A stretch of DNA of 64,000 nucleotides from Siphonodentalium dalli (lineage: Eukaryota; Mollusca; Scaphopoda; Gadilida; Siphonodentaliidae), in contig CP136061.1 in NCBI GenBank assembly GCA_032622095.1, positions 19,222,991-19,286,990 of the forward strand, given 5' to 3'. Position 1 is the first letter of the stretch. Each line of letters opens with the position of its first letter. The position numbers were made by a program, and so were the translations under genes. Shown here piece by piece: positions 7,924 to 42,820 of this stretch. Below the pieces are notes generated by a model, which did not search any database, was not told the origin of the DNA, and saw nothing but the letters and a program-made list of their open reading frames with translations.

Positions 7924-9843
7924 CTAAATGTAATGCATCTGTTCATCGCCAAATCGCAATGAGTTTATAATATATTTTTGCACAGCTGCGAACAATTGGT
8001 AATTTCCTTCATTGGAAAGTGAGACTGATCCACAAAGTAGATCAGCAACATGAACTTGATATAATCCTATTCGCATTATTTTTTCTTCGAGGTTAGCCCT
8101 TTCTGTTCGATAATAGGGACAAGTGAAAAAGTAATGATCAGCGTCCTCGTTTAGGTAGCCACAACTACATTCCGGGTTACTTATTAAATGATTTTGAGAT
8201 TTGTCCCCATTCAAATCACTGCATTTATTTCGGAGTCTACGTAACAAAATGTTAGCTTTCCTTTTGCCGCCAGAATAAAACATTGGTGGTTTAAGTGTCC
8301 CAAATTGTGGGTTTACAAGATTAGAGAAGGTAGTAATTGATGCGCTTTGTTGTGCTATTTTCTCTAGGCCATTCCATATCGAAATCATGGAAGGAAGGAA
8401 ACTACTATTTGTATGCTGAGAGCCTGGTACAAAATGTCTAACAAAGTTTGGATTTCTGAACTCATATCTGTTGTCCGTTATGTCGCCAGATGTTGGAGGG
8501 ATTTTGTTTAGTATATAGGATGGTGCATGATTAGTCATGATTTGATAAGTGAGACGTAATTTATGCCAGTCTCTGTGTTGTTGGAGAGTATTCCAACCAA
8601 GTTCACGTAATAAGTTAGCGTTTGAGACAGATCTAGTGACACCACCGACAATTCGTGCTGCATCGTAATGTAGATCATCTAATTTACTGATGCGGTATGC
8701 TGGTGTATTTTTCCAGATGACATCACCATAATTGATTAAAGGAAGAATGAAAACGTTATACATAATCTCAAGTGTGCGTCTATTCAAAAAATATTTTAAC
8801 TTTCTGAGTTGTGATAGTCTTGATGCTACTCTCTTACACATATTATTTATTTGGATATCCCAGTCCAGGTTTGATTGTAGAACAATTCCTAGATGCCTAT
8901 GAGATGAGACAATTTCTATGGCGGAGTCATCCAGTGACAAATCCATGACATTTGTACTGGAGGGTATAAAAGAGAACACGATTGCCTTTGTTTTGTCAGG
9001 ATTAAAATTTACAAGCCATTGTTTAGCCCAAGCAGAGATACGATCAAGATCGGCCGATAGATTAGAGTTGGTTTCTTCAATTGAAGGACTGGCATTCGTG
9101 AAACAAGTGTCATCAGCATACATACGCGTAAAAGAATGAATTGTATCAGACAAATCATTTATAAATACAAGAAATAAGAAAGGCCCCAATATATATCCTT
9201 CAGTGACTCCTGTGTGGAGATACATATAGTCAGACGCGGCATCAGAAACGACCACACACTGTTTTCTGTTTGATATATAGTCACTAATCCACAATAAAAG
9301 GTCTCCCTCAACTCCATATTCTTTAAGTTTGTGTATCAGACCAGTGTGCCAGATTCTTTCGAACAATTTAGAAATATCACAGAATATAGAACAAGTCACA
9401 AGTTTGTTGTCGAGAGACTGGCACAGGGAATAATATAAGTCAATTACTAGTAATTGAAAAGTAGTTGAATGGCCAGGCAAAAAACCAGACTGATGCTTAT
9501 ACAACAATTCATTGTTATCGAAATGAGACATTAAGTATTTCAAAATAATCTTCTAAAATTTTTTAGATAAATATGGTAATAAGGATATAGGACGATAGTT
9601 TCCTGGATTTGAGCGGCCATCTTTTTTATGAATCGGGATAACATTTGCCTTTTTCCACTCAGCAGGAAAAGATTTCAAGGAAAGAGATTTGGTGAACATT
9701 ATTTTGAGTGGCACAACAACAGTATAGACAGTTTCTTTCGGCATTTTTGTAGTTATACCGTCATGACCGTTTGCTTTTCCAACCTTTAAGCTTTTTATAG
9801 CATGTATAATATCCACGTCTTCAAATTCAATTTCTGATATCTT
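7924..9843 (-). mobile_element. LINE B, 3' half: reverse transcriptase and C-terminal region
   Basis: A single minus-strand frame from 9843 to 7924, broken only by one in-frame amber codon at 9553-9555 (SKKF, stop, KIILKYL). It starts in the linker (KISEIEFEDVDIIHAIKSLK), then shows the RT start (NVIPIHKKDGRSNPGNYRPI), motif A FCDISKLFERIW, a degraded motif B (GVTEGYILGP where GVPQGSVLGP is usual) and motif C YADDT. The post-RT part ends in a C-x-C...H...C zinc-like segment (CSCGYLNEDADHYFFTC). Length and order fit the Jockey/CR1 superfamily. The altered motif B and the stop suggest an inactive copy. Its 5' boundary abuts a (ATTG)4 tract that is the 3' tail of LINE C. The missing endonuclease half appears to be the segment at 40905-42820. 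Confidence 0.9.
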
Positions 9844-12501
9844 ATTGATTGATTGATTGTTTATTTCCAGCCATTTTGACATGATACAAGGAAAATATAA
9901 CATATAATGACATGCATAATGTAGAACATATGTACACATATAATAATATATACAAGTATCCACCCGCGAACATATTAAATGAATACAGTTTCGATTACCA
10001 TCGACAATTGCTTATATAACTATATACCCCAAAATATAAAGAATCAATAGATACCACGTAAAAGTAAAATTAGTTCACGAGTTACTTTGTTTTGATTGCG
10101 GTGCTCGACAATATAACATGAATCGAGATATAGGGGCCTACTACTTATTCTTAATCATGCTGTATGCTGGGGTATTAATCATCGTTATCTTTGCGTGTAG
10201 TATAGAATATTCAATAGAGTATACTCACGTATAAGAGATATTTAAGTCATCAAATATCGAATAGTCATGATACAATATGCACCAAGTATTAATGAGGACT
10301 GATTAATAACTGGTTAGCACTAAAATTGTCAGTTGTGACCCTTAAATTTACCATTCCGTCTGCCTCAGTTGTCTTCATATCGCTTCATGCCTATGCGTAT
10401 GAATTTTGCGAGATTTTTTAGTTGAATGAGATCAGTAGAGTACAAAAGTTTATACAGATAATCAATGGATCCATTTGTCCAATACTCATTTGAGATAAGT
10501 TTTTCTCTAATGTCTGCTAACTTCGGAAAAACTATTATAAAATGATACTCGTCTGATATAGAGACCTTACAAAGAGGGCACACAAGCTGCGTTTTATTCC
10601 TCTTTTTATTTTTGCCCCATCTAGCCACTTCTACTCCCAATCTATGATTCGCTGTTCGGATTTTTTGAATACTTACTCTGTCATTAAATGACAATTCATA
10701 ATAAAAAATACTGAGAGTGGGCTTGGTTTTAAGATGTCTGTATAATTCACCACGAGAAGAAGAGGCAGATATATCCCTATCCCAATCTGATTTAAAAGTA
10801 TTAATCAAAGCTGAGTGCATACTGCCTATCATCGAAGGTGTCATCGTCTTTTGGCGATGCCAAGTATCATCGAACCCAGTAGACTGAAGGGTTATCCTAT
10901 AGCAATCAATCAATCGAACCTTTTTCCCACTCATTTCAACGGAGATCAACAGTCTGTACAGTTTGTGCATTAGTCTGTGGTCAGGTTGGGTTATCAGTCT
11001 TGACCAATATGATATCATTCTCTTTTTTACCTCAATGTAAAGAGGCCAACGACCGAGCTCACCGTATACCATGTAATTTGGAGTACTATTCTTCATATGT
11101 GTTAATGACTTGCAAAAATTTAAATGGACGGCTTCTATGTCCCTTAGATTTTCGCACCCCCAAACTTCGCACCCATACAGAAGGATTGGCTTGATGAGCC
11201 AGTCAAAAAGTTTCAATGCCAGGTCGGTTGATAGGGACAGTTTTCGAACCTTGGAGAGTAGTCCATACATAGCCTTTGTTGCTTTCAAGCGGTTATGTTT
11301 TATCGCGCGACAAAATCGTCCGTTATAAAATAATTTAACACCAAGGTAAATGAATTCATCAACAACTTCTAGTTCATGTCCATCAATATAGAATTTTATG
11401 TCAGATTCAGCCCTTTTGTTGCCAAAAATCATAACCTTAGTCTTCTGTGTGTTTACCTTCAGTTCCCATGAACTTGCATAATCGCTGAAGGCATCTAGTG
11501 AACGTTGCATATCACGTGCATTGTCGGAAAAAATAACAGTGTCGTCTGCATAAAGAATGCAGAACAAATTCAAATATGCGCCAAGGTGTGCATACATACT
11601 AGATGACAGGTATTTCAAACCGTCGATAGAGCAGCTTTCTAGGAAATCCTCAAGGTCATTCAGATACAGCGAGAATAGAAGAGGCGAAAGATTTACCCCT
11701 TGTTTCACTCCTGTTGTGCATAAAAATATTCAGATCTCCGACCACCCCTCATAACGCAAGCTTTGGTGGTCTGGTACATACATCTGATTACCTGGAAGAA
11801 TTTTCCGTTTATTCCACTTCTCAAGAGTTTTACCCACAGACCCTGTCGCCAAACGGTATCAAATGCTTTCTTGAAGTCTACGAAAGTGCAAAAGAGTTTC
11901 TTCCCACCTCTCAAATAAATTTCAAAAAGTGCGTATAATATATAAATATTGTCTAAAGTGGAACGTTGTTTCCTGAACCCAGACTGATTATCGCTCAAAA
12001 TTCCCTGCCGTTCTATGTAGTCTGATAGCCGCTTATTTAGAATGCCGGTAAACACTTTTCCAATACAACTAAGCAAAGTTATTCCCCTATATGAATCTGG
12101 GTTGTTACGATAACCTTTATTTTTTATATAGGGGTACAATTAACCCTGTTGTCCATTCGTCGGGGAAAACGCCAGTATCAAGTATAGAGTTGAATAGACG
12201 AGTGTAGTATGGTAACATAATGTCTCTAGTTGTCTTGATGTACTCATTCGAGACCCGATCAACACCACTTGATTTATTGAATTTTAACTTGTCAATAACA
12301 CTAGCGATTTCTTCTGAACTGATGGGGTTGTTCAATTCGTCAGTTGTTTCTAGACCAAACATTTCGTTAATTAGGGGTTCTAGTTGAGTTGTTTCCTCTT
12401 CCACATTCAGGGATTTAAAGTGTTCAAAGAAATCGTCCACCCCAATGGGAATTTCAGTTTGGGCCGTTCTGCTGGATGAGTACTTTTCGAGCGTTCGCCC
12501 G
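9844..12501 (-). mobile_element. LINE C: 5'-truncated non-LTR retrotransposon inserted in LINE B
   Basis: On the minus strand: pre-RT region (VDDFFEHFKSLN, then NNPISSEEIASVIDKLKF), RT start (NNPDSYRGITLLSCIGKVF), motif A FVDFKKAFDTVW, motif B GVKQGVNLSP, motif C YADDT, then KPILLYGCEVWG and NYMVYGELGRWPLY, a C-terminal zinc-like segment (CPLCKVSISDEYHF) and a stop at 10365. Two frame changes occur, one in an A6 stretch near 12120-12126 and one at an A5/T5 run near 11730. From 10364 to 9844 is the 3' UTR, ending in a (CAAT)4 tail at 9844-9859. It resembles the 3' end of LINE D. There is no endonuclease: the 5' end stops where satellite 1 begins. All catalytic aspartates are present. Clade not assigned; it differs clearly from LINEs A and B. 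Confidence 0.9.
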
Positions 12502-15500
12502 TAGAACATTTATATATAAGGCTTGGTAGTTTTACATTTATATATAAGGCATGGTAGTTAACATTTATATATAAGGCTTGGTAGTTTAACATTTATATAT
12601 AAGGCTTGGTAGTTTACATTTATATATAAGGCTTGGTAGTTAACATTTATATATAAGGCTTGGTAGTTTAACATTTATATATAAGGCTTGGTAGTTTAAC
12701 ATTTATATATAAGGCTTGGTAGTTAACATTTATATATAAGGCTTGGTAGTTTATATATAAGGCTTGGTAGAACATTTATATATAAGGCTTGGTAGTTTAA
12801 CATTTATATATAAGGCTTGGTAGTTTAACATTTATATATAAGGCTTGGTAGTTAACATTTATATATAAGGCTTGGTAGTTAACATTTATATATAAGGCTT
12901 GGTAGTTAACATTTATATATAAGGCTTGGTAGTTTAACATTTATATATAAGGCTTGGTAGTTTAACATTTATATGTAAGGCTTGGTAGTTAACATTTATA
13001 TATAAGGCTTGGTAGTTTAACATTTATATATAAGGCTTGGTAGTTTTACATTTATATATAAGGCATGGTAGTTAACATTTATATATAAGGCTTGGTAGTT
13101 TAACATTTATATATAAGGCTTGGTAGTTTACATTTATATATAAGGCTTGGTAGTTAACATTTATATATAAGGCTTGGTAGTTTATATATAAGGCTTGGTA
13201 GTTAACATTTATATATAAGGCTTGGTAGTTTAACATTTATATATAAGGCTTGGTAGTTTACATTTATATATAAGGCTTGGTAGTTAACATTTATATATAA
13301 GGCTTGGTAGTTTAACATTTATATATAAGGCTTGGTAGTTAACATTTATATATAAGGCTTGGTAGTTTAACATTTATATATAAGGCTTGGTAGTTTAACA
13401 TTTATATATAAGGCTTGGTAGTTAACATTTATATATAAGGCTTGGTAGTTAACATTTATATATAAGGCTTGGTAGTTTATATATAAGGCTTGGTAGTTTA
13501 TATATAAGGCTTGGTAGTTTATATATAAGGCTTGGTAGTTAACATTTATATATAAGGCTTGGTAGTTTAACATTTATATATAAGGCTTGGTAGTTTAACA
13601 TTTATATATAAGGCTTGGTAGTTAACATTTATATATAAGGCTTGGTAGTTTAACATTTATATATAAGGCTTGGTAGTTTAACATTTATATATAAGGCTTG
13701 GTAGTTTATATATAAGGCTTGGTAGTTTATATATAAGGCTTGGTAGTTAACATTTATATATAAAGCTTGGTAGTTAACATTTATATATAAGGCTTGGTAG
13801 TTAACATTTATATATAAGGCTTGGTAGTTTAACATTTATATATAAGGCTTGGTAGTTAACATTTATATATAAGGCTTGGTAGTTTAACATTTATATATAA
13901 GGCTTGGTAGTTTAACATTTATATATAAGGCTTGGTAGTTTAACATTTATATATAAGGCTTGGTAGTTTAACATTTATATATAAGGCTTGGTAGTTTAAC
14001 ATTTATATATAAGGCTTGGTAGTTTAACATTTATATATAAGGCTTGGTAGTTTAACATTTATATATAAGGCTTGGTAGTTAACATTTATATATAAGGCTT
14101 GGTAGTTTAACATTTATATATAAGGCTTGGTAGTTTAACATTTATATATAAGGCTTGGTAGTTTAACATTTATATATAAGGCTTGGTAGTTTAACATTTA
14201 TATATAAGGCTTGGTAGTTAACATTTATATATAAGGCTTGGTAGTTTAACATTTATATATAAGGCTTGGTATTTTAACATTTATATATAAGGCTTGGTAG
14301 TTTAACATTTATATATAAGGCTTGGTAGTTTAACATTTATATATAAGGCTTGGTAGTTAACATTTATATATAAGGCTTGGTAGTTTAACATTTATATATA
14401 AGGCTTGGTAGTTTAACATTTATATATAAGGCTTGGTAGTTTAACATTTATATATAAGGCTTGGTAGTTAACATTTATATATAAGGCTTGGTAGTTTAAC
14501 ATTTATATATAAAGCTTGGTAGTTAACATTTATATATAAGGCTTGGTAGTTAACATTTATATGTAAGGCTTGGTAGTTAACATTTATATGTAAGGCTTGG
14601 TAGTTAACATTTATATGTAAGGCTTGGTAGTTTAACATTTATATATAAGGCTTGGTAGTTTAACATTTATATATAAGGCTTGGTAGTTTAACATTTATAT
14701 ATAAGGCTTGGTAGTTAACATTTATATATAAGGCTTGGTAGTTTAACATTTATATATAAGGCTTGGTAGTTTAACATTTATATGTAAGGCTTGGTAGTTA
14801 ACATTTATATGTAAGGCTTGGTAGTTAACATTTATATGTAAGGCTTGGTAGTTAACATTTATATGTAAGGCTTGGTAGTTTAACATTTATATATAAGGCT
14901 TGGTAGTTAACATTTATATGTAAGGCTTGGTAGTTTAACATTTATATGTAAGGCTTGGTAGTTAACATTTATATGTAAGGCTTGGTAGTTAACATTTATA
15001 TGTAAGGCTTGGTAGTTTAACATTTATATGTAAAGCTTGGTAGTTTAACATTTATATATAAGGCTTGGTAGTTAACATTTATATGTAAGGCTTGGTAGTT
15101 AACATTTATATATAAGGCTTGGTAGTTAACATTTATATATAAGGCTTGGTAGTTAACATTTATATATAAGGCTTGGTAGTTTAACATTTATATATAAGGC
15201 TTGGTAGTTAAACATTTATATATAAGGCTTGGTAGTTTAACATTTATATATAAGGCTTGGTAGTTTAACATTTATATATAAGGCTTGGTAGTTTAACATT
15301 TATATATAAGGCTTGGTAGTTTAACATTTATATATAAGGCTTGGTAGTTAACATTTATATATAAGGCTTGGTAGTTAACATTTATATATAAGGCTTGGTA
15401 GTTAACATTTATATGTAAGGCTTGGTAGTTAACATTTATATATAAGGCTTGGTAGTTAACATTTATATATAAGGCTTGGTAGTTTAACATTTATATATAA

Positions 15501-18500
15501 GGCTTGGTAGTTAACATTTATATATAAGGCTTGGTAGTTTAACATTTATATATAAGGCTTGGTAGTTTAACATTTATATATAAGGCTTGGTAGTTTAACA
15601 TTTATATATAAGGCTTGGTAGTTTAACATTTATATATAAGGCTTGGTAGTTTAACATTTATATATAAGGCTTGGTAGTTTAACATTTATATATAAGGCTT
15701 GGTAGTTTAACATTTATATATAAGGCTTGGTAGTTTAACATTTATATATAAGGCTTGGTAGTTTAACATTTATATATAAGGCTTGGTAGTTAACATTTAT
15801 ATATAAGGCTTGGTAGTTAACATTTATATATAAGGCTTGGTAGTTTAACATTTATATATAAGGCTTGGTAGTTAACATTTATATATAAGGCTTGGTAGTT
15901 AACATTTATATATAAGGCTTGGTAGTTAACATTTATATATAAGGCTTGGTAGTTAACATTTATATATAAGGCTTGGTAGTTAACATTTATATGTAAGGCT
16001 TGGTAGTTTAACATTTATATATTAGGCTTGGTAGTTTAACATTTATATATAAGGCTTGGTAGTTAACATTTATATATAAGGCTTGGTAGTTAACATTTAT
16101 ATATAAGGCTTGGTAGTTTAACATTTATATATAAGGCTTGGTAGTTAACATTTATATATAAGGCTTGGTAGTTAACATTTATATATAAGGCTTGGTAGTT
16201 AACATGTATATATAAGGCTTGGTAGTTAACATTTATATGTAAGGCTTGGTAGTTTAACATTTATATATAAGGCTTGGTAGTTTAACATGTATATATAAGG
16301 CTTGGTAGTTTAACATTTATATATAAGGCTTGGTAGTTAACATTTATATGTAAGGCTTGGTAGTTTAACATTTATATATAAGGCTTGGTAGTTTAACATG
16401 TATATATAAGGCTTGGTAGTTTAACATGTATATATAAGGCTTGGTAGTTAACATTTATATGTAAGGCTTGGTAGTTTAACATTTATATATAAGGCTTGGT
16501 AGTTTAACATTTATATATAAGGCTTGGTAGTTTAACATTTATATATAAGGCTTGGTAGTTAACATTTATATATAAGGCTTGGTAGTTAACATTTATATAT
16601 AAGGCTTGGTAGTTAACATTTATATATAAGGCTTGGTAGTTTAACATTTATATATAAGGCTTGGTAGTTTAACATTTATATATAAGGCTTGGTAGTTTAA
16701 CATGTATATATAAGGCTTGGTAGTTAACATTTATATATAAGGCATGGTAGTTTAACATTTATATATAAGGCTTGGTAGTTAACATTTATATATAAGGCTT
16801 GGTAGTTAACATTTATATATAAGGCTTGGTAGTTAACATTTATATATAAGGCTTGGTAGTTTAACATTTATATATAAGGCTTGGTAGTTTAACATTTATA
16901 TATAAGGCTTGGTAGTTTAACATGTATATATAAGGCTTGGTAGTTAACATTTATATGTAAGGCTTGGTAGTTTAACATTTATATATAAGGCTTGGTAGTT
17001 TAACATTTATATATAAGGCTTGGTAGTTTAACATTTATATATAAGGCTTGGTAGTTTAACATTTATATATAAGGCTTGGTAGTTTAACATTTATATATAA
17101 GGCTTGGTAGTTTAACATTTATATATAAGGCTTGGTAGTTAACATTTATATATAAGGCTTGGTAGTTAACATTTATATATAAGGCTTGGTAGTTTAACAT
17201 TTATATATAAGGCTTGGTAGTTAACATTTATATATAAGGCTTGGTAGTTTAACATTTATATATAAGGCTTGGTAGTTTAACATTTATATATAAGGCTTGG
17301 TAGTTTAACATTTATATATAAGGCTTGGTAGTTTAACATTTATATATAAGGCTTGGTAGTTAACATTTATATATAAGGCTTGGTAGTTAACATTTATATA
17401 TAAGGCTTGGTAGTTAACATTTATATATAAGGCTTGGTAGTTTAACATTTATATATAAGGCTTGGTAGTTAACATTTATATATAAGGCTTGGTAGTTAAC
17501 ATTTATATATAAGGCTTGGTAGTTTAACATTTATATATAAGGCTTGGTAGTTAACATTTATATATAAGGCTTGGTAGTTAACATTTATATATAAGGCTTG
17601 GTAGTTAACATTTATATATAAGGCTTGGTAGTTTAACATTTATATATAAGGCTTGGTAGTTTAACATTTATATGTAAGGCTTGGTAGTTTAACATTTATA
17701 TGTAAGGCTTGGTAGTTTAACATTTATATATAAGGCTTGGTAGTTTAACATTTATATATAAGGCTTGGTAGTTTAACATTTATATATAAGGCTTGGTAGT
17801 TTAACATTTATATATAAGGCTTGGTAGTTTAACATTTATATATAAGGCTTGGTAGTTTAACATTTATATATAAGGCTTGGTAGTTTAACATTTATATGTA
17901 AGGCTTGGTAGTTTAACATTTATATATAAGGCTTGGTAGTTTAACATTTATATATAAGGCTTGGTAGTTTAACATTTATATATAAGGCTTGGTAGTTTAA
18001 CATTTATATATAAGGCTTGGTAGTTTAACATTTATATATAAGGCTTGGTAGTTTAACATTTATATGTAAGGCTTGGTAGTTTAACATTTATATATAAGGC
18101 TTGGTAGTTTAACATTTATATATAAGGCTTGGTAGTTTAACATTTATATATAAGGCTTGGTAGTTTAACATTTATATATAAGGCTTGGTAGTTTAACATT
18201 TATATATAAGGCTTGGTAGTTTACATTTATATATAAGGCTTGGTAGTTTAACATTTATATATAAGGCTTGGTAGTTAACATTTATATATAAGGCTTGGTA
18301 GTTAACATTTATATATAAGGCTTGGTAGTTAAACATTTATATATAAGGCTTGGTAGTTAACATTTATATATAAGGCTTGGTAGTTAACATTTATATATAA
18401 GGCTTGGTAGTTAACATTTATATATAAGGCTTGGTAGTTAACATTTATATATAAGGCTTGGTAGTTAACATTTATATGTACGGCTTGGTAGTTAACATTT

Positions 18501-21500
18501 ATATATAAGGCTTGGTAGTTAACATTTATATATAAGGCTTGGTAGTTAACATTTATATATAAGGCTTGGTAGTTAACATTTATATGTAAGGCTCGGTAGT
18601 TAACATTTATATGTAAGGCTTGGTAGTTAACATTTATATATAAGGCTTGGTAGTTAACATTTATATATAAGGCTTGGTAGTTAACATTTATATATAAGGC
18701 TTGGTAGTTAACATTTATATATAAGGCTTGGTAGTTTAACATGTATATGTAAGGCTTGGTAGTTAACATTTATATGTAAGGCTTGGTAGTTAACATTTAT
18801 ATGTAAGGCTTGGTAGTTAACATTTATATATAAGGCTTGGTAGTTAACATTTATATGTAAGGCTTGGTAGTTTAACATTTATATGTAAGGCTTGGTAGTT
18901 TAACATTTATATGTAAGGCTTGGTAGTTAACATTTATATGTAAGGCTTGGTAGTTTAACATTTATATGTAAGGCTTGGTAGTTTAACATTTATATGTAAG
19001 GCTTGGTAGTTTAACATTTATATGTAAGGCTTGGTAGTTTAACATTTATATATAAGGCTTGGTAGTTAACATTTATATATAAGGCTTGGTAGTTAACATT
19101 TATATATAAGGCTTGGTAGTTAACATTTATATATAAGGCTTGGTAGTTAACATTTATATATAAGGCTTGGTAGTTAACATTTATATGTAAGGCTTGGTAG
19201 TTTAACATTTATATGTAAGGCTTGGTAGTTTAACATTTATATGTAAGGCTTGGTAGTTTAACATTTATATGTAAGGCTTGGTAGTTTAACATTTATATAT
19301 AAGGCTTGGTAGTTAACATTTATATATAAGGCTTGGTAGTTAACATTTATATATAAGGCTTGGTAGTTAACATTTATATATAAGGCTTGGTAGTTAACAT
19401 TTATATGTAAGGCTTGGTAGTTAACATTTATATATAAGGCTTGGTAGTTAACATTTATATGTAAGGCTTGGTAGTTTAACATTTATATGTAAGGCTTGGT
19501 AGTTTAACATTTATATGTAAGGCTTGGTAGTTAACATTTATATGTAAGGCTTGGTAGTTTAACATTTATATGTAAGGCTTGGTAGTTTAACATTTATATG
19601 TAAGGCTTGGTAGTTTAACATTTATATGTAAGGCTTGGTAGTTTAACATTTATATATAAGGCTTGGTAGTTTAACATTTATATGTAAGGCTTGGTAGTTT
19701 AACATTTATATGTAAGGCTTGGTAGTTTAACATTTATATATAAGGCTTGGTAGTTTAACATTTATATATAAGGCTTGGTAGTTTAACATTTATATATAAG
19801 GCTTGGTAGTTTAACATTTATATGTAAGGCTTGGTAGTTAACATTTATATATAAGGCTTGGTAGTTAACATTTATATATAAGGCTTGGTAGTTAACATTT
19901 ATATATAAGGCTTGGTAGTTAACATTTATATGTAAGGCTCGGTAGTTAACATTTATATGTAAGGCTTGGTAGTTAACATTTATATATAAGGCTTGGTAGT
20001 TAACATTTATATATAAGGCTTGGTAGTTAACATTTATATATAAGGCTTGGTAGTTAACATTTATATATAAGGCTTGGTAGTTAACATTTATATGTAAGGC
20101 TCGGTAGTTAACATTTATATGTAAGGCTCGGTAGTTAACATTTATATGTAAGGCTTGGTAGTTAACATTTATATGTAAGGCTTGGTAGGTAACATTTATA
20201 TATAAGGCTTGGTAGTTAACATTTATATATAAGGCTTGGTAGTTAACATTTATATATAAGGCTTGGTAGTTAACATTTATATATAAGGCTTGGTAGTTAA
20301 CATTTATATATAAGGCTTGGTAGTTAACATTTATATATAAGGCTTGGTAGGTAACATTTATATATAAGGCTTGGTAGTTAACATTTATATATAAGGCTTG
20401 GTAGTTTAACATTTATATATAAGGCTTGGTAGTTAACATTTATATATAAGGCTTGGTAGTTTAACATTTATATATAAGGCTTGGTAGTTTAACATTTATA
20501 TATAAGGCTTGGTAGTTAACATTTATATATAAGGCTTGGTAGTTAACATTTATATATAAGGCTTGGTAGTTAACATTTATATATAAGGCTTGGTAGTTTA
20601 TATATAAGGCTCGGTAGTTAACTTTTATATATAAGGCTTGGTAGTTAACATTTATATATAAGGCTTGGTAGTTAACATTTATATATAAGGCTTGGTAGTT
20701 AACATTTATATATAAGGCTTGGTACTTAACATTTATATATAAGGCTTGGTAGTTAACATTTATATATAAGGCTTGGTAGTTAACATTTATATATAAGGCT
20801 TGGTAGTTTAACATTTATATATAAGGCTTGGTAGTTAACATTTATATATAAGGCTTGGTAGTTAACATTTATATATAAGGCTTGGTAGTTAACATTTATA
20901 TATAAGGCTTGGTAGTTAACATTTATATATAAGGCTTGGTAGTTAACATTTATATATAAGGCTTGGTAGTTAACATTTATATATAAGGCTTGGTAGTTAA
21001 CATTTATATATAAGGCTTGGTAGTTTAACATTTATATATAAGGCTTGGTAGTTTAACATTTATATGTAAGGCTTGGTAGTTAACATTTATATGTAAGGCT
21101 TGGTAGTTTATATATAAGGCTTGGTAGTTAACATTTATATATAAGGCTTGGTAGTTAACATTTATATATAAGGCTTGGTAGTTAACATTTATATATAAGG
21201 CTTGGTAGTTAACATTTATATATAAGGCTTGGTAGTTAACATTTATATATAAGGCTTGGTAGTTTAACATTTATATATAAGGCTTGGTAGTTAACATTTA
21301 TATATAAGGCTTGGTAGTTAACATTTATATATAAGGCTTGGTAGTTTAACATTTATATGTAAGGCTTGGTAGTTTAACATTTATATGTAAGGCTTGGTAG
21401 TTTAACATTTATATATAAGGCTTGGTAGTTTAACATTTATATATAAGGCTTGGTAGTTTAACATTTATATGTAAGGCTTGGTAGTTTAACATTTATATGT

Positions 21501-30500: not shown

Positions 30501-33500
30501 CATTTATATGTAAGGCTTGGTAGTTTAACATTTATATGTAAGGCTTGGTAGTTTAACATTTATATGTAAGGCTTGGTAGGTAACATTTATATGTAAGGCT
30601 TGGTAGGTAACATTTATATGTAAGGCTTGGTAGGTAACATTTATATGTAAGGCTTGGTAGTTTAACATTTATATGTAAGGCTTGGTAGTTTAACATTTAT
30701 ATGTAAGGCTTGGTAGGTAACATTTATATGTAAGGCTTGGTAGGTAACATTTATATGTAAGGCTTGGTAGGTAACATTTATATGTAAGGCTTGGTAGTTT
30801 AACATTTATATGTAAGGCTTGGTAGTTTAACATTTATATGTAAGGCTTGGTAGGTAACATTTATATGTAAGGCTTGGTAGGTAACATTTATATGTAAGGC
30901 TTGGTAGTTTAACATTTATATGTAAGGCTTGGTAGTTAACATTTATATATAAGGCTTGGTAGTTTAACATTTATATGTAAGGCTTGGTAGGTAACATTTA
31001 TATGTAAGGCTTGGTAGTTAACATTTATATGTAAGGCTTGGTAGTTAACATTTATATATAAGGCTTGGTAGTTTAACATTTATATGTAAGGCTTGGTAGG
31101 TAACATTTATATGTAAGGCTTGGTAGTTAACATTTATATGTAAGGCTTGGTAGTTAACATTTATATATAAGGCTTGGTAGTTTAACATTTATATGTAAGG
31201 CTTGGTAGGTAACATTTATATGTAAGGCTTGGTAGTTAACATTTATATGTAAGGCTTGGTAGTTTAACATTTATATGTAAGGCTTGGTAGTTTAACATTT
31301 ATATGTAAGGCTTGGTAGTTTAACATTTATATGTAAGGCTTGGTAGCTAACATTTATATGTAAGGCTTGGTAGTTAACATTTATATGTAAGGCTTGGTAG
31401 TTAACATTTATATGTAAGGCTTGGTAGTTAACATTTATATGTAAGGCTTGGTAGTTAACATTTATATGTAAGGCTTGGTAGTTTAACATTTATATGTAAG
31501 GCTTGGTAGGTAACATTTATATGTAAGGCTTGGTAGGTAACATTTATATGTAAGGCTTGGTAGGTAACATTTATATGTAAGGCTTGGTAGGTAACATTTA
31601 TATGTAAGGCTTGGTAGTTTAACATTTATATGTAAGGCTTGGTAGGTAACATGTATATGTAAGGCTTGGTAGGTAACATTTATATGTAAGGCTTGGTAGT
31701 TAACATTTATATGTAAGGCTTGGTAGTTTAACATTTATATGTAAGGCTTGGTAGGTAACATTTATATGTAAGGCTTGGTAGTTAACATTTATATGTAAGG
31801 CTTGGTAGGTAACATTTATATGTAAGGCTTGGTAGTTAACATTTATATGTAAGGCTTGGTAGGTAACATTTATATGTAAGGCTTGGTAGTTAACATTTAT
31901 ATGTAAGGCTTGGTAGGTAACATTTATATGTAAGGCTTGGTAGGTAACATTTATATATAAGGCTTGGTAGGTAACATTTATATATAAGGCTTGGTAGTTA
32001 ACATTTATATGTAAGGCGTGGTAGTTAACATTTATATGTAAGGCTTGGTAGTTAACATTTATATGTAAGGCTTGGTAGTTTAACATTTATATGTAAGGCT
32101 TGGTAGGTAACATTTATATGTAAGGCTTGGTAGTTTAACATTTCTATGTAAAGCTTGGTAGTTTAACATTTATATGTAAGGCTTGGTAGGTAACATTTAT
32201 ATGTAAGGCTTGGTAGTTAACATTTATATGTAAGGCTTGGTAGTTTAACATTTATATGTAAGGCTTGGTAGTTAACATTTATATATAAGGCTTGGTAGTT
32301 TAACATTTATATGTAAGGCTTGGTAGTTTAACATTTATATGTAAGGCTTGGTAGTTTAACATTTATATGTAAGGCTTGGTAGTTAACATTTATATGTAAG
32401 GCTTGGTAGTTTAACATTTATATGTAAGGCTTGGTAGGTAACATTTATATGTAAGGCTTGGTAGTTTAACATTTATATATAAGGCTTGGTAGTTAACATT
32501 TATATGTAAGGCTTGGTAGTTTAACATTTATATGTAAGGCTTGGTAGGTAACATTTATATGTAAGGCTTGGTAGTTTAACATTTCTATGTAAAGCTTGGT
32601 AGTTTAACATTTATATGTAAGGCTTGGTAGTTAACATTTATATGTAAGGCTTGGTAGGTAACATTTATATGTAAGGCTTGGTAGTTTAACATTTATATGT
32701 AAGGCTTGGTAGGTAACATTTATATGTAAGGCTTGGTAGTTAACATTTATATATAAGGCTTGGTAGTTTAACATTTATATGTAAGGCTTGGTAGGTAACA
32801 TTTATATGTAAGGCTTGGTAGTTTAACATTTATATGTAAGGCTTGGTAGTTTAACATTTATATGTAAGGCTTGGTAGTTTAATATTTATATGTAAGGCTT
32901 GGTAGGTAACATTTATATGTAAGGCTTGGTAGTTTAATATTTATATATAAGGCTTGGTAGTTAATATTTATATATAAGGCTTGGTAGTCTAACATTTATA
33001 TGTAAGGCTTGGTAGGTAACATTTATATGTAAGGCTTGGTAGGTAACATTTATATGTAAGGCTTGGTAGTTTAACATTTATATGTAAGGCTTGGTAGTTT
33101 AACATTTATATGTAAGGCTTGGTAGTTTAACATTTATATGTAAGGCTTGGTAGGTAACATTTATATGTAAGGCTTGGTAGTTTAACATTTATATGTAAGG
33201 CTTGGTAGTTTAACATTTATATGTAAGGCTTGGTAGTTTAATATTTATATATAAGGCTTGGTAGTTAATATTTATATATAAGGCTTGGTAGTCTAACATT
33301 TATATGTAAGGCTTGGTAGGTAACATTTATATGTAAGGCTTGGTAGTTTAACATTTATATGTAAGGCTTGGTAGTTTAACATTTATATGTAAGGCTTGGT
33401 AGTTTAACATTTATATGTAAGGCTTGGTAGTTAATATTTATATATAAGGCTTGGTAGTTTAACATTTATATGTTAGGCTTGGTAGTTTAACATGTATATG

Positions 33501-36500
33501 TAAGGCTTGGTAGTTAACATTTATATGTAAGGCTTGGTAGTTTAACATGTATATGTAAGGCTTGGTAGTTAACATGTATATGTAAGGCTTGGTAGTTAAC
33601 ATTTATATGTAAGGCTTGGTAGGTAACATTTATATGTAAGGCTTGGTAGGTAACATTTATATGTAAGGCTTGGTAGTTAACATTTATATGTAAGGCTTGG
33701 TAGTTTAACATTTATATGTAAGGCTTGGTAGTTAACATTTATATGTAAGGCTTGGTAGTTAACATTTATATGTAAGGCTTGGTAGTTTAACATTTATATG
33801 TAAGGCTTGGTAGTTTAACATTTATATATAAGGCTTGGTAGTTTAACATTTATATGTAAGGCTTGGTAGCTAACATTTATATGTAAGGCTTGGTAGTTAA
33901 CATTTATATATAAGGCTTGGTAGTTTAACATTTATATGTAAGGCTTGGTAGTTTAACATTTATATGTAAGGCTTGGTAGTTTAACATTTATATGTAAGGC
34001 TTGGTAGTTAACATTTATATGTAAGGCTTGGTAGTTTAACATTTATATGTAAGGCTTGGTAGCTAACATTTATATGTAAGGCTTGGTAGTTTAACATTTA
34101 TATGTAAGGCTTGGTAGTTTAACATTTATATGTAAGGCTTGGTAGTTTAACATTTATATATAAGGCTTGGTAGTTTAACATTTATATGTAAGGCTTGGTA
34201 GCTAACATTTATATGTAAGGCTTGGTAGTTTAACATTTATATGTAAGGCTTGGTAGTTTAACATTTATATGTAAGGCTTGGTAGGTAACATTTATATGTA
34301 AGGCTTGGTAGTTTAACATTTATATGTAAGGCTTGGTAGTTTAACATTTATATGTAAGGCTTGGTAGTTAACATTTATATGTAAGGCTTGGTAGGTAACA
34401 TTTATATGTAAGGCTTGGTAGTTTAACATTTATATGTAAGGCTTGGTAGCTAACATTTATATGTAAGGCTTGGTAGTTTAACATTTATATGTAAGGCTTG
34501 GTAGTTTAACATTTATATGTAAGGCTTGGTAGTTTAACATTTATATATAAGGCTTGGTAGTTTAACATTTATATGTAAGGCTTGGTAGCTAACATTTATA
34601 TGTAAGGCTTGGTAGTTTAACATTTATATGTAAGGCTTGGTAGTTTAACATTTATATGTAAGGCTTGGTAGGTAACATTTATATGTAAGGCTTGGTAGTT
34701 TAACATTTATATGTAAGGCTTGGTAGGTAACATTTATATGTAAGGCTTGGTAGTTTAACATTTATATGTAAGGCTTGGTAGTTAACATTTATATGTAAGG
34801 CTTGGTAGGTAACATTTATATATAAGGCTTGGTAGTTTAACATTTATATATAAGGCTTGGTAGTTTAACATTTATATATAAGGCTTGGTAGGTAACATTT
34901 ATATGTAAGGCTTGGTAGTTTAACATTTATATGTAAGGCTTGGTAGTTTAACATTTATATGTTAGGCTTGGTAGGTAACATTTATATGTAAGGCTTGGTA
35001 GCTAACATTTATATGTAAGGCTTGGTAGTTAACATTTATATGTAAGGCTTGGTAGTTAACATTTATATGTAAGGCTTGGTAGTTTAACATTTATATGTAA
35101 GGCTTGGTAGTTAACATTTATATGTAAGGCTTGGTAGTTTAACATTTATATGTAAGGCTTGGTAGTTAACATTTATATGTAAGGCTTGGTAGGTAACATT
35201 TATATGTAAGGCTTGGTAGTTTAACATTTATATGTAAGGCTTGGTAGCTAACATTTATATGTAAGGCTTGGTAGCTAACATTTATATGTAAGGCTTGGTA
35301 GTTTAACATTTATATGTAAGGCTTGGTAGTTTAACATTTATATGTAAGGCTTGGTAGTTAACATTTATATGTAAGGCTTGGTAGGTAACATTTATATGTA
35401 AGGCTTGGTAGTTAACATTTATATGTAAGGCTTGGTAGTTAACATTTATATGTAAGGCTTGGTAGTATAACATTTATATGTAAGGCTTGGTAGTTAACAT
35501 TTATATATAAGGCTTGGTAGTTTAACATTTATATGTAAGGCTTGGTAGTTTACATTTATATGTAAGGCTTGGTAGTTTAACATTTATATATAAGGCTTGG
35601 TAGCTAACATTTATATGTAAGGCTTGGTAGCTAACATTTATATGTAAGGCTTGGTAGCTAACATTTATATGTAAGGCTTGGTAGTTAACATTTATATGTA
35701 AGGCTTGGTAGTTTAACATTTATATGTAAGGCTTGGTAGTTTAACATTTATATATAAGGCTTGGTAGTTTAACATTTATATATAAGGCTTGGTAGTTTAA
35801 CATTTATATGTAAGGCTTGGTAGTTTAACATTTATATGTAAGGCTTGGTAGTTTAACATTTATATGTAAGGCTTGGTAGTTAACATTTATATGTAAGGCT
35901 TGGTAGTTTAACATTTATATGTAAGGCTTGGTAGTTTAACATTTATATGTAAGGCTTGGTAGTTTAACATTTATATATAAGGCTTGGTAGTTTAACATTT
36001 ATATGTAAGGCTTGGTAGTTTAACATTTATATGTAAGGCTTGGTAGTTAACATTTATATGTAAGGCTTGGTAGTTAACATTTATATGTAAGGCTTGGTAG
36101 TTTAACATTTATATGTAAGGCTTGGTAGGTAACATTTATATGTAAGGCTTGGTAGTTTAACATTTATATGTAAGGCTTGGTAGGTAACATTTATATGTAA
36201 GGCTTGGTAGTTTAACATTTATATGTAAGGCTTGGTAGGTAACATTTATATGTAAGGCTTGGTAGTTAACATTTATATGTAAGGCTTGGTAGTTTAACAT
36301 TTATATGTAAGGCTTGGTAGTTTAACATTTATATGTAAGGCTTGGTAGTTAACATTTATATGTAAGGCTTGGTAGTTAACATTTATATGTAAGGCTTGGT
36401 AGTTTAACATTTATATGTAAGGCTTGGTAGTTTAACATTTATATGTAAGGCTTGGTAGTTTAACATTTATATATAAGGCTTGGTAGTTTAACATTTATAT

Positions 36501-39500
36501 GTAAGGCTTGGTAGTTTAACATTTATATGTAAGGCTTGGTAGTTTAACATTTATATGTAAGGCTTGGTAGCTAACATTTATATGTAAGGCTTGGTAGTTT
36601 AACATTTATATGTAAGGCTTGGTAGTTTAACATGTATATGTAAGGCTTGGTAGTTTAACATTTATATGTAAGGCTTGGTAGTTTAACATTTATATGTAAG
36701 GCTTGGTAGGTAACATTTATATGTAAGGCTTGGTAGGTAACATTTATATGTAAGGCTTGGTAGTTAACATTTATATGTAAGGCTTGGTAGTTAACATTTA
36801 TATGTAAGGCTTGGTAGTTTAACATTTATATGTAAGGCTTGGTAGGTAACATTTATATGTAAGGCTTGGTAGTTTAACATTTATATGTAAGGCTTGGTAG
36901 TTTAACATTTATATGTAAGGCTTGGTAGTAAACATGTATATGTAAGGCTTGGTAGTTTAACATTTATATGTAAGGCTTGGTAGTTTAACATGTATATGTA
37001 AGGCTTGGTAGTTTAACATTTATATGTAAGGCTTGGTAGTTTAACATGTATATGTAAGGCTTGGTAGTTTAACATTTATATGTAAGGCTTGGTAGCTAAC
37101 ATTTATATGTAAGGCTTGGTAGTTTAACATTTATATGTAAGGCTTGGTAGTTAACATTTATATGTAAGGCTTGGTAGTTAACATTTATATGTAAGGCTTG
37201 GTAGTTAACATTTATATATAAGGCTTGGTAGGTAACATTTATATGTAAGGCTTGGTAGTTAACATTTATATGTAAGGCTTGGTAGCTAACATTTATATAT
37301 AAGGCTTGGTAGTTAACATTTATATATAAGGCTTGGTAGTTTAACATTTATATGTAAGGCTTGGTAGTTTAACATTTATATGTAAGGCTTGGTAGTTTAA
37401 CATTTATATGTAAGGCTTGGTAGTTAACATTTATATGTAAGGCTTGGTAGTTAACATTTATATGTAAGGCTTGGTAGTTAACATTTATATGTAAGGCTTG
37501 GTAGTTAACATTTATATGTAAGGCTTGGTAGTTTAACATGTATATGTAAGGCTTGGTAGTTTAACATTTATATGTAAGGCTTGGTAGCTAACATTTATAT
37601 GTAAGGCTTGGTAGTTTAACATTTATATGTAAGGCTTGGTAGTTAACATTTATATGTAAGGCTTGGTAGTTAACATTTATATGTAAGGCTTGGTAGTTAA
37701 CATTTATATATAAGGCTTGGTAGTTAACATTTATATGTAAGGCTTGGTAGGTAACATTTATATGTAAGGCTTGGTAGGTAACATTTATATGTAAGGCTTG
37801 GTAGGTAACATTTATATGTAAGGCTTGGTAGTTAACATTTATATATAAGGCTTGGTAGTTTAACATTTATATATAAGGCTTGGTAGTTTAACATTTATAT
37901 ATAAGGCTTGGTAGTTAACATTTATATATAAGGCTTGGTAGTTAACATTTATATATAAGGCTTGGTAGTTAACATTTATATGTAAGGCTTGGTAGTTAAC
38001 ATTTATATGTAAGGCTTGGTAGTTAACATTTATATGTAAGGCTTGGTAGTTTAACATTTATATGTAAGGCTTGGTAGTTAACATTTATATGTAAGGCTTG
38101 GTAGTAAACATGTATATGTAAGGCTTGGTAGTTTAACATTTATATGTAAGGCTTGGTAGTTAACATTTATATGTAAGGCTTGGTAGTTTAACATTTATAT
38201 GTAAGGCTTGGTAGTTAACATTTATATGTAAGGCTTGGTAGGTAACATTTATATGTAAGGCTTGGTAGTTAACATTTATATGTAAGGCTTGGTAGTTAAC
38301 ATTTATATGTAAGGCTTGGTAGTTTAACATTTATATGTAAGGCTTGGTAGTTAACATTTATATGTAAGGCTTGGTAGTTTAACATGTATATGTAAGGCTT
38401 GGTAGTTTAACATTTATATGTAAGGCTTGGTAGTTTAACATGTATATGTAAGGCTTGGTAGTTTAACATGTATATGTAAGGCTTGGTAGTTTAACATTTA
38501 TATGTAAGGCTTAGTAGTTAACATTTATATGTAAGGCTTGGTAGTTTAACATGTATATGTAAGGCTTGGTAGGTAACATTTATATGTAAGGCTTGGTAGT
38601 TTAAGATTTATATGTAAGGCTTGGTAGCTAACATTTATATGTAAGGCTTGGTAGCTAACATTTATATGTAAGGCTTGGTAGTTTAACATTTATATGTAAG
38701 GCTTGGTAGTTTAACATGTATATGTAAGGCTTGGTAGGTTAACATTTATATATAAGGCTTGGTAGCTAACATTTATATGTAAGGCTTGGTAGTTTAACAT
38801 TTATATATAAGGCTTGGTAGTTTAACATTTATATGTAAGGCTTGGTAGTTTAACATTTATATATAAGGCTTGGTAGTTTAACATTTATATATAAGGCTTG
38901 GTAGTTTAACATTTATATATAAGGCTTGGTAGTTTAACATTTATATATAAGGCTTGGTAGTTAACATTTATATATAAGGCTTGGTAGTTAACATTTATAT
39001 ATAAGGCTTGGTAGCTAACATTTATATGTAAGGCTTGGTAGTTAACATTTATATGTAAGGCTTGGTAGTTAACATTTATATATAAGGCTTGGTAGTTAAC
39101 ATTTATATATAAGGCTTGGTAGTTTAACATTTATATGTAAGGCTTGGTAGTTTAACATTTATATATAAGGCATGGTAGCTAACATTTATATGTAAGGCTT
39201 GGTAGTTTAACATTTATATATAAGGCTTGGTAGTTTAACATTTATATATAAGGCATGGTAGCTAACATTTATATGTAAGGCTTGGTAGTTTAACATTTAT
39301 ATATAAGGCTTGGTAGTTTAACATTTATATATAAGGCATGGTAGCTAACATTTATATGTAAGGCTTGGTAGTTAACATTTATATATAAGGCTTGGTAGTT
39401 AACATTTATATGTAAGGCTTGGTAGGTAACATTTATATGTAAGGCTTGGTAGGTAACATTTATATGTAAGGCTTGGTAGTTAACATTTATATGTAAGGCT

Positions 39501-40904
39501 TGGTAGTTAACATGTATATGTAAGGCTTGGTAGTTAACATTTATATGTAAGGCTTGGTAGTTAACATTTATATGTAAGGCTTGGTAGTTTAACATTTATA
39601 TGTAAGGCTTGGTAGTTAACATTTATATGTAAGGCTTGGTAGTTTAACATTTATATGTAAGGCTTGGTAGGTAACATTTATATGTAAGGCTTGGTAGTTA
39701 ACATTTATATGTAAGGCTTGGTAGTTAACATTTATATATAAGGCTTGGTAGTTAACATTTATATGTAAGGCTTGGTAGGTAACATTTATATATAAGGCTT
39801 GGTAGTTAACATTTATATGTAAGGCTTGGTAGTTAACATTTATATATAAGGCTTGGTAGTTTAACATTTATATGTAAGGCTTGGTAGTTAACATTTATAT
39901 GTAAGGCTTGGTAGTTTAACATTTATATGTAAGGCTTGGTAGGTAACATTTATATGTAAGGCTTGGTAGTTAACATGTATATGTAAGGCTTGGTAGTTAA
40001 CATTTATATGTAAGGCTTGGTAGTTAACATTTATATGTAAGGCTTGGTAGTTAACATTTATATGTAAGGCTTGGTAGTTAACATTTATATGTAAGGCTTG
40101 GTAGTTTAACATTTATATATAAGGCTTGGTAGCTAACATTTATATGTAAGGCTTGGTAGCTAACATTTATATGTAAGGCTTGGTAGTTTAACATTTATAT
40201 GTAAGGCTTGGTAGTTAACATTTATATGTAAGGCTTGGTAGTTAACATTTATATGTAAGGCTTGGTAGGTAACATTTATATGTAAGGCTTGGTAGTTTAA
40301 CATTTATATGTAAGGCTTGGTAGGTAACATTTATATGTAAGGCTTGGTAGTTTAACATTTATATATAAGGCTTGGTAGTTTAACATTTATATGTAAGGCT
40401 TGGTAGGTAACATTTATATGTAAGGCTTGGTAGGTAACATTTATATGTAAGGCTTGGTAGTTAACATTTATATATAAGGCTTGGTAGTTTAACATTTATA
40501 TATAAGGCTTGGTAGTTTAACATTTATATATAAGGCTTGGTAGTTAACATTTATATATAAGGCTTGGTAGTTAACATTTATATATAAGGCTTGGTAGTTA
40601 ACATTTATATATAAGGCTTGGTAGTTAACATTTATATGTAAGGCTTGGTAGTTTAACATGTATATGTAAGGCTTGGTAGTTAACATTTATATATAAGGCT
40701 TGGTAGTTAACATTTATATATAAGGCTTGGTAGTTTAACATTTATATATAAGGCTTGGTAGTTTAACATTTATATATAAGGCTTGGTAGTTTAACATTTA
40801 TATATAAGGCTTGGTAGTTTATATATAAGGCTTGGTAGTTTATATATAAGGCTTGGTAGTTTATATATAAGGCTTGGTAGTTTATATATAAGGCTTCGTA
40901 GTTT
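12502..40904. repeat. Satellite 1: 28.4-kb tandem array of a 27/28-bp unit (about 1,000 copies)
   Basis: The unit has the core ATAAGGCTTGGTAGTT followed by (T)AACATTTATAT. Units of 27 and 28 bp are mixed, with a rarer 21-bp form lacking AACATT(T). Runs of 27-bp units keep one minus-strand frame open (repeating NYQALYINV), which explains the 60-209-codon open frames in the array; 28-bp units break it. Variants are regional. TATATAAGG dominates from 12.5 to about 18 kb and in 24-26 kb, TATATGTAAGG dominates from about 26 kb to the right end, GGTAGGTAAC is frequent at 28.6-36 kb, and GGTAGCTAAC from about 27 kb on. Several local higher-order periods are visible. The array begins at the 5' end of LINE C and ends inside LINE B coding sequence. 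No gene, spacer or other element interrupts it. Confidence 0.98.
40811..40904. repeat. Run of 21-bp short units at the LINE-proximal end of satellite 1
   Basis: Four consecutive 21-bp units (GTTTATATATAAGGCTTGGTA) replace the 27/28-bp form at the right edge. On the minus strand each reads LPSLIYK, continuing directly and in frame from the LINE B protein (SHCKL, then RSLIYK, LPSLIYK). Isolated 21-bp units also occur near the left end (about 12750, 13180, 13480-13530, 13700) and at 22380-22560. The position suggests that the short unit is the older form and the 27/28-bp unit gained six or seven bases. Confidence 0.8.
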
Positions 40905-42820
40905 ACAGTGTGACGCATCGAGAGATGAATGTTTTATAAACGTCTCATTTAAAATATTTGCTTTTTCATAATCATCAATTATAAGATTACCATTTGGTGA
41001 TTTGATAGGTGGAATAACGCTATTTGGATTTTTATTCAAAATATCTTTAAAGGCACGTGAGGCCTTAGTGTCGAAAATATTCCTATTTGTTCAAATCACC
41101 GTAAACAGAAAAAAACAGTAAAACGCATACAGTTTCGTTCATATATACCATGACCATCGCGTAAACAGCATGTTATCATAAAGACGTACTATATTTTACC
41201 TAAGCAAGAGCCTGATTGTGTTACAGAAGACAGCACAATGCTACTGGCTAATCACACACAAATGGCATAAACGCTCTTTATTAGTTCCATATCAGGAATT
41301 CACCCACAAAGAACGCTCTTTATGTTTACCATCATAATATAAACAAACACCAGAAAAGTAACTTTTTATGCTTTTGTTTACATAACAATGGTCAACTATA
41401 TGACAATAACATACTGTTTATGCGATATTTCTTATTTGTATACGGACAAAGTCTGTCTACATTTGATGTTCTTTCTGTTTGTGGCGGTTTTTGACGGTTG
41501 GAAATATTTTCACAGGATACCCACCGCCAAGGCCAACCGTACCTTTAACCGTTTGCCAGAAAAATTTCGGGTTACTAGACAATTTGCTGAGGAGATGGCT
41601 CCATATAAGCGCCTGGCGCTTGATGTCAAATCCTCTTCTCTCTCGGACTTATCATACTTACATATATATATTAACATCATTTTGTAAATTGTTGTATAAA
41701 TCTGGGATACTAAATAAATAATGTTTACACCAATTTGCTTTCATATTCAAGTTTTGCGTGTTTTTTTTATATTGTTAACTTTATTTCTCATTGATTTATA
41801 TTTCGTCCAAGCGTTAATTTTATCAGTGCGGATAGCCGCGCGTCTAAGTTTGTCTCGCTTACGAATAGCGGTTATTAATTATGATGTAAACCAATGTTTA
41901 TCGTTTCGTCTGATTATCACTTCTTTGTGTGGGATACAAGTTTTCATTATGTTAATGTAGATGTCTGTAAAAGTTTGTACTATATGGTCAATATCCAAAG
42001 AAGGAGCCAATAATTTATGCCAATCAATTTCATTAATAATAGTATTAGATCTAGGAAAGTCGGGATAATTGGCCTTTGTTCTTGAGATGGAGCGTAGTCG
42101 AAATATACAGAGGCCATCACTGCATAGTAATCAGATATAGTACGCCCAAAATCGATTGTTTCGTGTTCGTATGACACGACCTGGTCGCTTACTTTATGTG
42201 GTCTAATGATGTACCAACGCGAGTCGCAGTTGAGATGAGGTTACGTAGACTTAGTTTGTCAATAAGATCATTTATATCTGAGTTTAAACCTAGTTGATCA
42301 GAGTTGAGATCGCCTACCAAGATGAGGGGAGTGTTACTACTGAGTATCGTATCCAGTGCAGAGTGAAGTTTTTCCCAATAATTAGAATTTCAAAACTGTT
42401 GGGATCTATACGTGAGTGCAATTATGTACTTTACTGATTTGGAACGTATCTGAAAACATAGTATATACTCTCGTCAAATTCTAGATATTCTAAGCGTTTA
42501 TAAACGATATGATTAGCCACATAGGCGCAGATGCCTCCTCCGTGACTGTCGCGATCTTTCCTTATTGGCTGGTAGAAATTGGGAATATGTATATGGTCCG
42601 AGCTATATACTAATAAAGGGTCTAGATGAGTTTCTGTAAAACATATGATATCATATTCGTTTATGGATGTTAATATTTTGTCTAGTTTATTTCTTAAACT
42701 ACGGATATTTAAATGGAATATTGAGAGAGTATGTCCGTTCATATTTACTGGTCCGGGAAAATGGTGAATATCTCCGCAAATCATCAGCAAAAGGGATGCG
42801 ATCAGTACAAATTTCAAATT
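40905..42820 (-). mobile_element. LINE B, 5' half: endonuclease and linker, interrupted by a TTAA element
   Basis: Minus strand from 42817: a hydrophobic start with the CGDIHHFPGP motif, typical of the N-terminus of CR1/L2-like ORF2, then an APE endonuclease (LSIFHLNIRSLRNKLDKI, CFTETHLD, GGGICAYVAN) to about 42430. Decayed endonuclease follows in other frames (LILVGDLNSDQLGLNSD near 42310, SYEHETIDFGRTISDYYAVM near 42160). The linker (KHWFTS, stop, LITAIRKRDKLRR) runs to about 41730. After the nested element at 41047-41548 the linker resumes as FFWQTVKDILNKNPNSVIPP and ends at SSLDASHCKL, where satellite 1 begins. There are several stops and frame changes, so this half is decayed. Orientation, order and the join point match the RT half at 7924-9843. 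Confidence 0.85.
41047..41548. mobile_element. Non-autonomous TTAA element, copy 1, inside LINE B
   Basis: Bounded by TTAA at 41047-41050 and 41545-41548. The inner termini are imperfect inverted repeats: AGGCACGTGAGGCCTTAG at the left and AGGTACGGTTGGCCTTGG reading inward from the right. TTAA duplication is the hallmark of piggyBac-type transposition, although these termini do not begin with the usual CCC. Removing the element plus one TTAA joins LINE B as FFWQTVKDILNKNP without a gap, which fixes both boundaries. The 494-bp interior is AT-rich with no gene and contains two AACGCTCTTTAT motifs 42 bp apart. A second copy lies at 43286-43908. Confidence 0.85.

Follow-up and report, generated by a model that had tools for sequence, protein, structure and literature searches.

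A 28-kb satellite of the scaphopod Siphonodentalium dalli, very probably a 28-nt LINE coding segment amplified in place

Satellite DNAs with coding sequence of long interspersed nuclear elements (LINEs) have been described in several vertebrates: HinfI (SCR1) of chicken derives from the CR1 LINE, and PROsat of Phodopus and Pvc20 of the harbour seal derive from open reading frame (ORF) 2 of LINE-1 (PMC9659126). Retrotransposon-derived tandem arrays are also known from maize, where CRM1TR and CRM4TR were characterised and CRM1TR occupies two neighbouring loci of one chromosome (PMC3648361). A review of 2025 lists gag or pol domains, long terminal repeats (LTRs), LINE untranslated regions (UTRs) and parts of DNA transposons as satellite sources (PMC12628747). 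Here we describe a 28-kb head-to-tail array in a stretch of 64,000 nt from the genome of Siphonodentalium dalli (assembly GCA_032622095.1, contig CP136061.1, positions 19,222,991 to 19,286,990; hereafter, the window), which lies on contig C1 of the 2.2-Gb, nine-contig assembly. The array is located where one LINE (LINE C) interrupts another (LINE B), and its unit is found in the coding sequence of LINE B. Satellites derived from LINE ORFs are already known, and the array of the window is an unusually complete case of them.

Like HinfI, PROsat and Pvc20, the array carries LINE coding sequence; however, PROsat shows 88% LINE likeness over a small region and HinfI includes the 3' UTR and a part of ORF2 (PMC9659126), whereas here the whole unit is a contiguous 28-nt LINE segment, still residing within the parent copy at one locus. 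With CRM1TR and CRM4TR it shares a known parent element and a proposed initiating rearrangement, although these maize arrays originate from LTR/UTR sequence of centromeric retrotransposons, while the unit in the window is coding, has 28 bp and comes from a seed with direct repeats of 3-4 nt (PMC3648361). PcH-sat of the limpet Patella caerulea, related to Nin-SINE, similarly has a large segment matching a retroelement, but its unit is 179 bp long and it occupies several chromosome pairs and about 10% of the genome (PMC11121367), in contrast to the single locus found here. No satellite seeded at the 5' junction of a LINE was named in the titles and abstract openings of a literature search.

The original prediction placed the satellite exactly at the interface where LINE B coding sequence breaks off on one side and LINE C has its 5' end on the other, and proposed that its unit had begun as LINE coding DNA that was tandemly copied. 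The position was confirmed by reading of the sequence and by Tandem Repeats Finder (TRF), which reports a single array (12505-40821), with 21-bp copies running onward to 40905 (Table 1). When units are delimited at their CTACC start on the minus strand, which is the coding strand of the LINEs, the array comprises 533 units of 28 bp, 483 of 27 bp, 17 of 21 bp, two of 25 bp and one terminal partial unit. Thus, the predicted 27-bp unit does exist in large numbers, but the 28-bp form is commoner.

The 28-bp unit corresponds without interruption to a segment of the linker that separates the HCK and SEIEF motifs in LINE B; among the 1016 units with 27 or 28 bp, 440 match this linker over the entire 25-nt core. 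Forty places, including the window, were scored out of 1020 first-look candidates for the LINE B sequence flanking the array, and they are distributed over all nine contigs; 30 of them were fetched, giving 29 copies apart from the window itself (L009). LINE B copies elsewhere read HCKLPSLIYKCSDKISEIEF across the point where the array stands. A single linker, CACTGTAAACTACCAAGCCTTATATATAAATGTTCTGATAAGATATC or a near variant, is passed straight through in 27 of the 29 copies, which encode HCKLPSL and then the codons of the unit, as the proposed origin demands; the LP-x-L motif expected at this place is indeed what intact copies carry. The two exceptions are L035, where the linker is complete beyond an inserted terminal inverted repeat (TIR) element, and L019, where a part of it is lost. 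Unrelated native sequence after HCKL occurs in no fetched copy. Genome-wide, a 41-nt linker pattern was found at 37 places with no more than three mismatches, 18 of them exact (none for the reversed-pattern control). The edges of the array agree with this origin. On the minus strand LINE B reads ...SHCK-L-RSLIYK-LPSLIYK..., the predicted in-frame passage from SHCKL into the repeats, and the frame is kept through the first four units. At the opposite edge the array meets LINE C; the unit has its right end (ATGTT) within the three nucleotides, TCT, by which LINE B and LINE C overlap, and LINE B picks up again beyond LINE C.

Since LINE B copies elsewhere carry a single linker and the unit is contiguous in it, LINE B of the window holds its own linker about 1000 times. 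The unit is homologous to a segment of a mobile element that occurs elsewhere without an array, and it forms a long head-to-tail array, both being features of a transposon-derived satellite. Judging from these sequence comparisons, the satellite was almost certainly seeded from the coding segment of LINE B and amplified in situ. That the 28-kb satellite as a whole is the 28-nt linker of LINE B amplified about 1000 times in place is highly probable, the odds on the trigger discussed below not being fully folded into this estimate.

The two interrupted linkers have their own features. In L035 (C8:55000111-55003255) the inserted TIR element is about 880 bp long and has TAAA on either side; its terminal inverted repeats begin with CTACGGAAGCG and its interior consists of TATCTTGCTGCAGCAAGTTA repeats of roughly 21 bp. 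In L019 (C5:164839143-164842287) the deletion starts inside the linker, directly after TATATAAA.

The genome contains 811 matches to the exact head-to-tail junction of units (AAATGTTN{1,3}ACTACCAAGC), and all but one of them (810) are in the window. The remaining match, on C5, was rejected as a second locus, as it resembles the window over 26-31 nt only and has no LINE B flanks. All 17 genome-wide matches to the 21-bp junction, with one mismatch allowed, are in the array. A 250-nt satellite query (26 of 27 candidates scored, no loci cut out) yielded, outside the array, 21 exact pieces of 31 nt and one unrelated 26-bp array on C2. Nineteen of these pieces abut scored LINE B copies and the other two are at linkers of the 41-nt pattern list. 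The array on C2 (70-72% similarity) was rejected as kin of the satellite, since within the 701 bases examined this 26-bp repeat has only a common AT-rich stretch. At this place (L070, C2:68541000-68541700) it forms an unrelated minisatellite of ATCATCGTGATATATAAATGTAATCG, which is like the satellite in that AT-rich stretch only.

By these searches the array is present at one locus, rather than at the many loci or in the heterochromatic blocks of a classical satellite, and no second locus was found to which the amplified LINE B segment would have spread; the same satellite at many loci free of LINEs, which would have spoken against the predicted origin, was likewise not encountered. The window contains another satellite (50459-62338) with a unit of about 182 bp and variants of 365 and 410 bp. 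A search of the same type located arrays of this family in numerous places on C1, C2, C6 and C9, so the method is able to see a dispersed satellite. Since dispersed satellites such as this one do occur in the genome, the 28-kb array might be a pre-existing satellite that was carried or recombined into the site from elsewhere, its likeness to LINE B being a coincidence. This is extremely improbable, as the unit is contiguous LINE B code found at exactly the position of the array and in frame at one edge, and neither another locus nor an older array of the unit without LINE B was found.

The internal structure of the array points to the manner of its growth. Among its units 57 monomer types were distinguished, and neighbouring units are alike: the ten leading lags for identity of monomer type are all 14 units or fewer, and the longest identical run is 28 monomers, against 6-7 in five shuffles. 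The analysis of unit similarity, which peaks at short lags, revealed no prominent large higher-order blocks or rolling-circle multimers. Because the top lags are short and long block repeats are not prominent, the array probably grew by short steps. A T14>C variant is common among the long units towards LINE B (437 of 539) and scarcer among those towards LINE C (105 of 477). The copy number of the array in the assembly may be wrong; a short real repeat might even have been inflated by mis-assembly of long reads. The latter is very unlikely, since the 57 monomer types, the asymmetry of T14>C and the locally alike units would be hard to produce by collapse or stutter.

Both elements at the junction are non-LTR retrotransposons, as indicated by a reverse transcriptase domain: Pfam RVT_1 was identified in the ORF of LINE B (7924-9543, E 6.7e-21) and in that of LINE C (10365-11708, E 3.8e-17). 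Among the other LINE C copies fetched, 28 extend across the junction point; 27 of these have GTCTACGGGCGAATTTTGGCGAACGC or a variant, L057 being the one without, while the window reads AAATGTTCTACGGGCGAACGC; one more copy, L065, is truncated short of this point. LINE C of the window is truncated at TCTACGG, and TCT is shared with AAATGTTCT of LINE B. Within about 12 bases of the joint, at about 12499/12500, LINE C has a private 10-bp deletion between two GGCGAA repeats (TTCGCC on the other strand). Its (AATC)n tail abuts ATAAGATATC of LINE B, about one base being lost. This tail is present in all five LINE C copies of which the 3' end was seen (the window, L069, L071, L073 and L075), and the 5' ends differ among copies; such a combination of variable 5' truncation with a constant 3' tail is characteristic of target-primed reverse transcription. 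No target-site duplication is visible at LINE C of the window. None is clear at four other copies either (L065, L072, L074 and L076, with L072 covered only short of its true 5' end), which were searched by script in L072/L071, L076/L075 and L074/L073 and by eye in L065/L069; the script gave only chance-like matches of 5 and 7 nt that are not at element ends. Its absence may therefore be normal for the LINE C family, though four copies make a small sample.

The relative age of the three components was estimated from private substitutions, i.e. those unlike the majority and absent from every other copy, among copies above cut-offs of length and identity. LINE B of the window has 15 in 1452 and 13 in 962 sites (1.2%; 22 and 16 sequences compared, that of the window included), apart from 17 and 8 further differences from the majority that occur in other copies and were not counted. 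LINE C has 5 in 1518 sites (five sequences including the window and the more distant L065) and 3 in 1116 columns (four sequences), or 0.3%. In the array 108 differences in 25,400 core sites were grouped into 38 change events, 0.15% per site, with T14>C and length variants excluded and three multi-state columns uncounted. Taken at face value, these figures would make LINE B the oldest, LINE C younger and the present array units the youngest; the divergence of units is a lower bound on the age of the array because of its turnover. These data also bear on the possibility that LINE B was inserted with its linker already repeated by slippage of its own reverse transcriptase, which is conceivable for an AT-rich unit of 21-28 nt. 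This is very unlikely: the array has diverged far less than the LINE B copy, two exact units with a native right or left LINE B flank were not found by an exact pattern in the genome, and a looser script match revealed no two-unit copy among the 29 fetched.

The linker itself contains short direct repeats at the ends of the unit: there are two copies of TAAA at a distance of 21 nt and two of TGT at a distance of 27 nt. The birth of minisatellites by slippage between short flanking repeats was proposed in the model of Haber and Louis (1998), as cited in PMC6947457; the seed in the window resembles that model in its short direct repeats flanking the unit, but they have only 4 bp (TAAA) and 3 bp (TGT), in comparison to the 5-10 bp given there. 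Joints of the form that TGT slippage would leave number 12 (ten ATGTAAAC and two ATGTAAAAC), and five of them are among the 36 units nearest the edge with LINE C. Random placement reached five such joints at this edge in 2 of 20,000 trials, although variants of the array cluster anyway.

The following sequence of events may be suggested. LINE C would have inserted into the LINE B linker at AAATGTTCT^(G)ATAAG with no visible target-site duplication, its truncated 5' end being joined via a microhomology of 3 nt. The 21-28 nt of LINE B next to the new junction might have been duplicated while the ends were being joined or shortly thereafter, with the help of the short TAAA and TGT seed repeats. 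Slippage and short-distance unequal exchange could then have expanded the pair to about 1036 units; one internal variant, T14>C, would have spread for the most part in the half of the array facing LINE B. That the insertion of LINE C triggered the amplification is what we infer from the common breakpoint, the adjacent deletion, the lack of two-unit LINE B copies in the searches and the age order. The probability of a chance coincidence was roughly put at 0.4%, with some ten positions counted out of at least 2.8 kb of LINE B that could be aligned. The linker is also broken in two of the 29 other copies, which indicates that the spot may be fragile, and for this reason we hold the role of LINE C as the trigger to be only slightly favoured. 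The more specific scenario, in which error-prone 5' joining during target-primed reverse transcription duplicated 28 nt of the target and the pair grew to a 28-kb array while LINE C diverged by about 0.3%, has in our view an even chance of being correct.

Alternatively, the array may have come first: the LINE B linker would have been duplicated and grown alone, and LINE C would have landed later at the edge of an array that was not yet large, where the array itself had perhaps caused a break. The spacing of the TAAA and TGT repeats, the AT-rich core and the interruption of the linker in L019 and L035 are compatible with this. Nevertheless, no two-unit LINE B copy was found elsewhere, hitting the exact edge of a large array is very unlikely (an estimated ten or so suitable positions in some 30 kb), and change events per site are fewer in the array than private substitutions in LINE C, though turnover could cause the latter. 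We consider such an order a realistic but less probable possibility.

Several observations weigh against the proposed amplification in place with LINE C as its trigger. The commonest joints, ATGTTAAAC (505) and ATGTTAAC (350), differ from the exact TGT-TGT product (ATGTAAAC or ATGTAAAAC), so one more early change would be needed. Single-strand folding of 111 nt of the array was no better than that of shuffled DNA for both strands (z 0.28 and 0.40), and hairpins therefore lend no support. The LINE C insertions of L065, L074 and L076 have no unit-sized target repeat in the 5' flank, where L074 shows an AT-rich repeat of 8 nt, L076 one of 6 nt and L065 none, and thus LINE C does not routinely produce a target duplication. 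The linker may be fragile or prone to insertions by itself, being interrupted in two of the 29 other copies, which weakens the argument from coincidence. An array of greater age might seem young because of turnover. The searches for other loci were exact or limited to candidate lists, and a diverged second array could escape them. As for the predicted timing, copying during or after the insertion of LINE C, it is favoured by the shared breakpoint and the relative divergence, but the order of the first duplication and the insertion is not directly visible.

Table 1. Features of the window around the satellite array (window positions)
Feature	Coordinates	Strand	Description	Basis
Satellite array	12503..40905	-	1036 tandem copies of the LINE B linker; coding-strand unit AAACTACCAAGCCTTATATATAAATGTT	TRF, unit cutting, seed identity
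LINE B edge of array	40818..40905	-	four 21-bp (7-codon) units, in frame with LINE B	
Last unit, LINE C edge	12505..12529	-	25 nt identical to native LINE B linker, reaching the junction	
3-nt overlap TCT (coding strand) of LINE B and LINE C	12503..12505	-	LINE C 5' junction	
LINE C	9846..12505	-	5'-truncated copy of a non-LTR retrotransposon, 3' tail (AATC)n	
LINE B, 3' part (reverse transcriptase)	7924..9845	-	resumes at ATAAGATATC / KISEIEF; 7924 is the ORF limit	
LINE B, 5' part	40906..42945 (mapped extent)	-	ends ...SHCK at the array; foreign stretches between 41051 and 41729	

The 5' part of LINE B contains two stretches foreign to it, at about 41051-41540 and 41584-41729. They are skipped in 26 of the 29 other fetched LINE B copies, L011 and L016 aligning only the piece between them and L035 not covering the region. 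The larger stretch is about 90% like 43290-43426 and 43531-43908 and is also found near LINE B in L036; on this comparison it is regarded as a dispersed element. Its second copy in the window is split at 43428-43530 by an inverted repeat, seen by eye as ACAGGTCCCCAGAACAAAAATTGACCCC... and its complement, which is probably a small foldback insertion. On the plus strand, a Pro/Tyr-rich reading frame (3310-3596) resembles by eye the last exon of a candidate host gene.

The beginnings of satellites are usually lost, because arrays spread and diverge before they are observed. In S. dalli a single genome offers the parent element and the seed, the two edges of the array, the insertion beside it and 37 places where the linker is not amplified, and this makes the first step testable by comparison of alleles and sister species. 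The locus also shows protein-coding sequence of a LINE becoming a 28-kb tandem repeat within about 1% divergence of the parent copy, and the starting point of the satellite is legible in it base by base. If the proposed role of LINE C is true, nested LINE insertions may be a recurrent nursery of new satellites.

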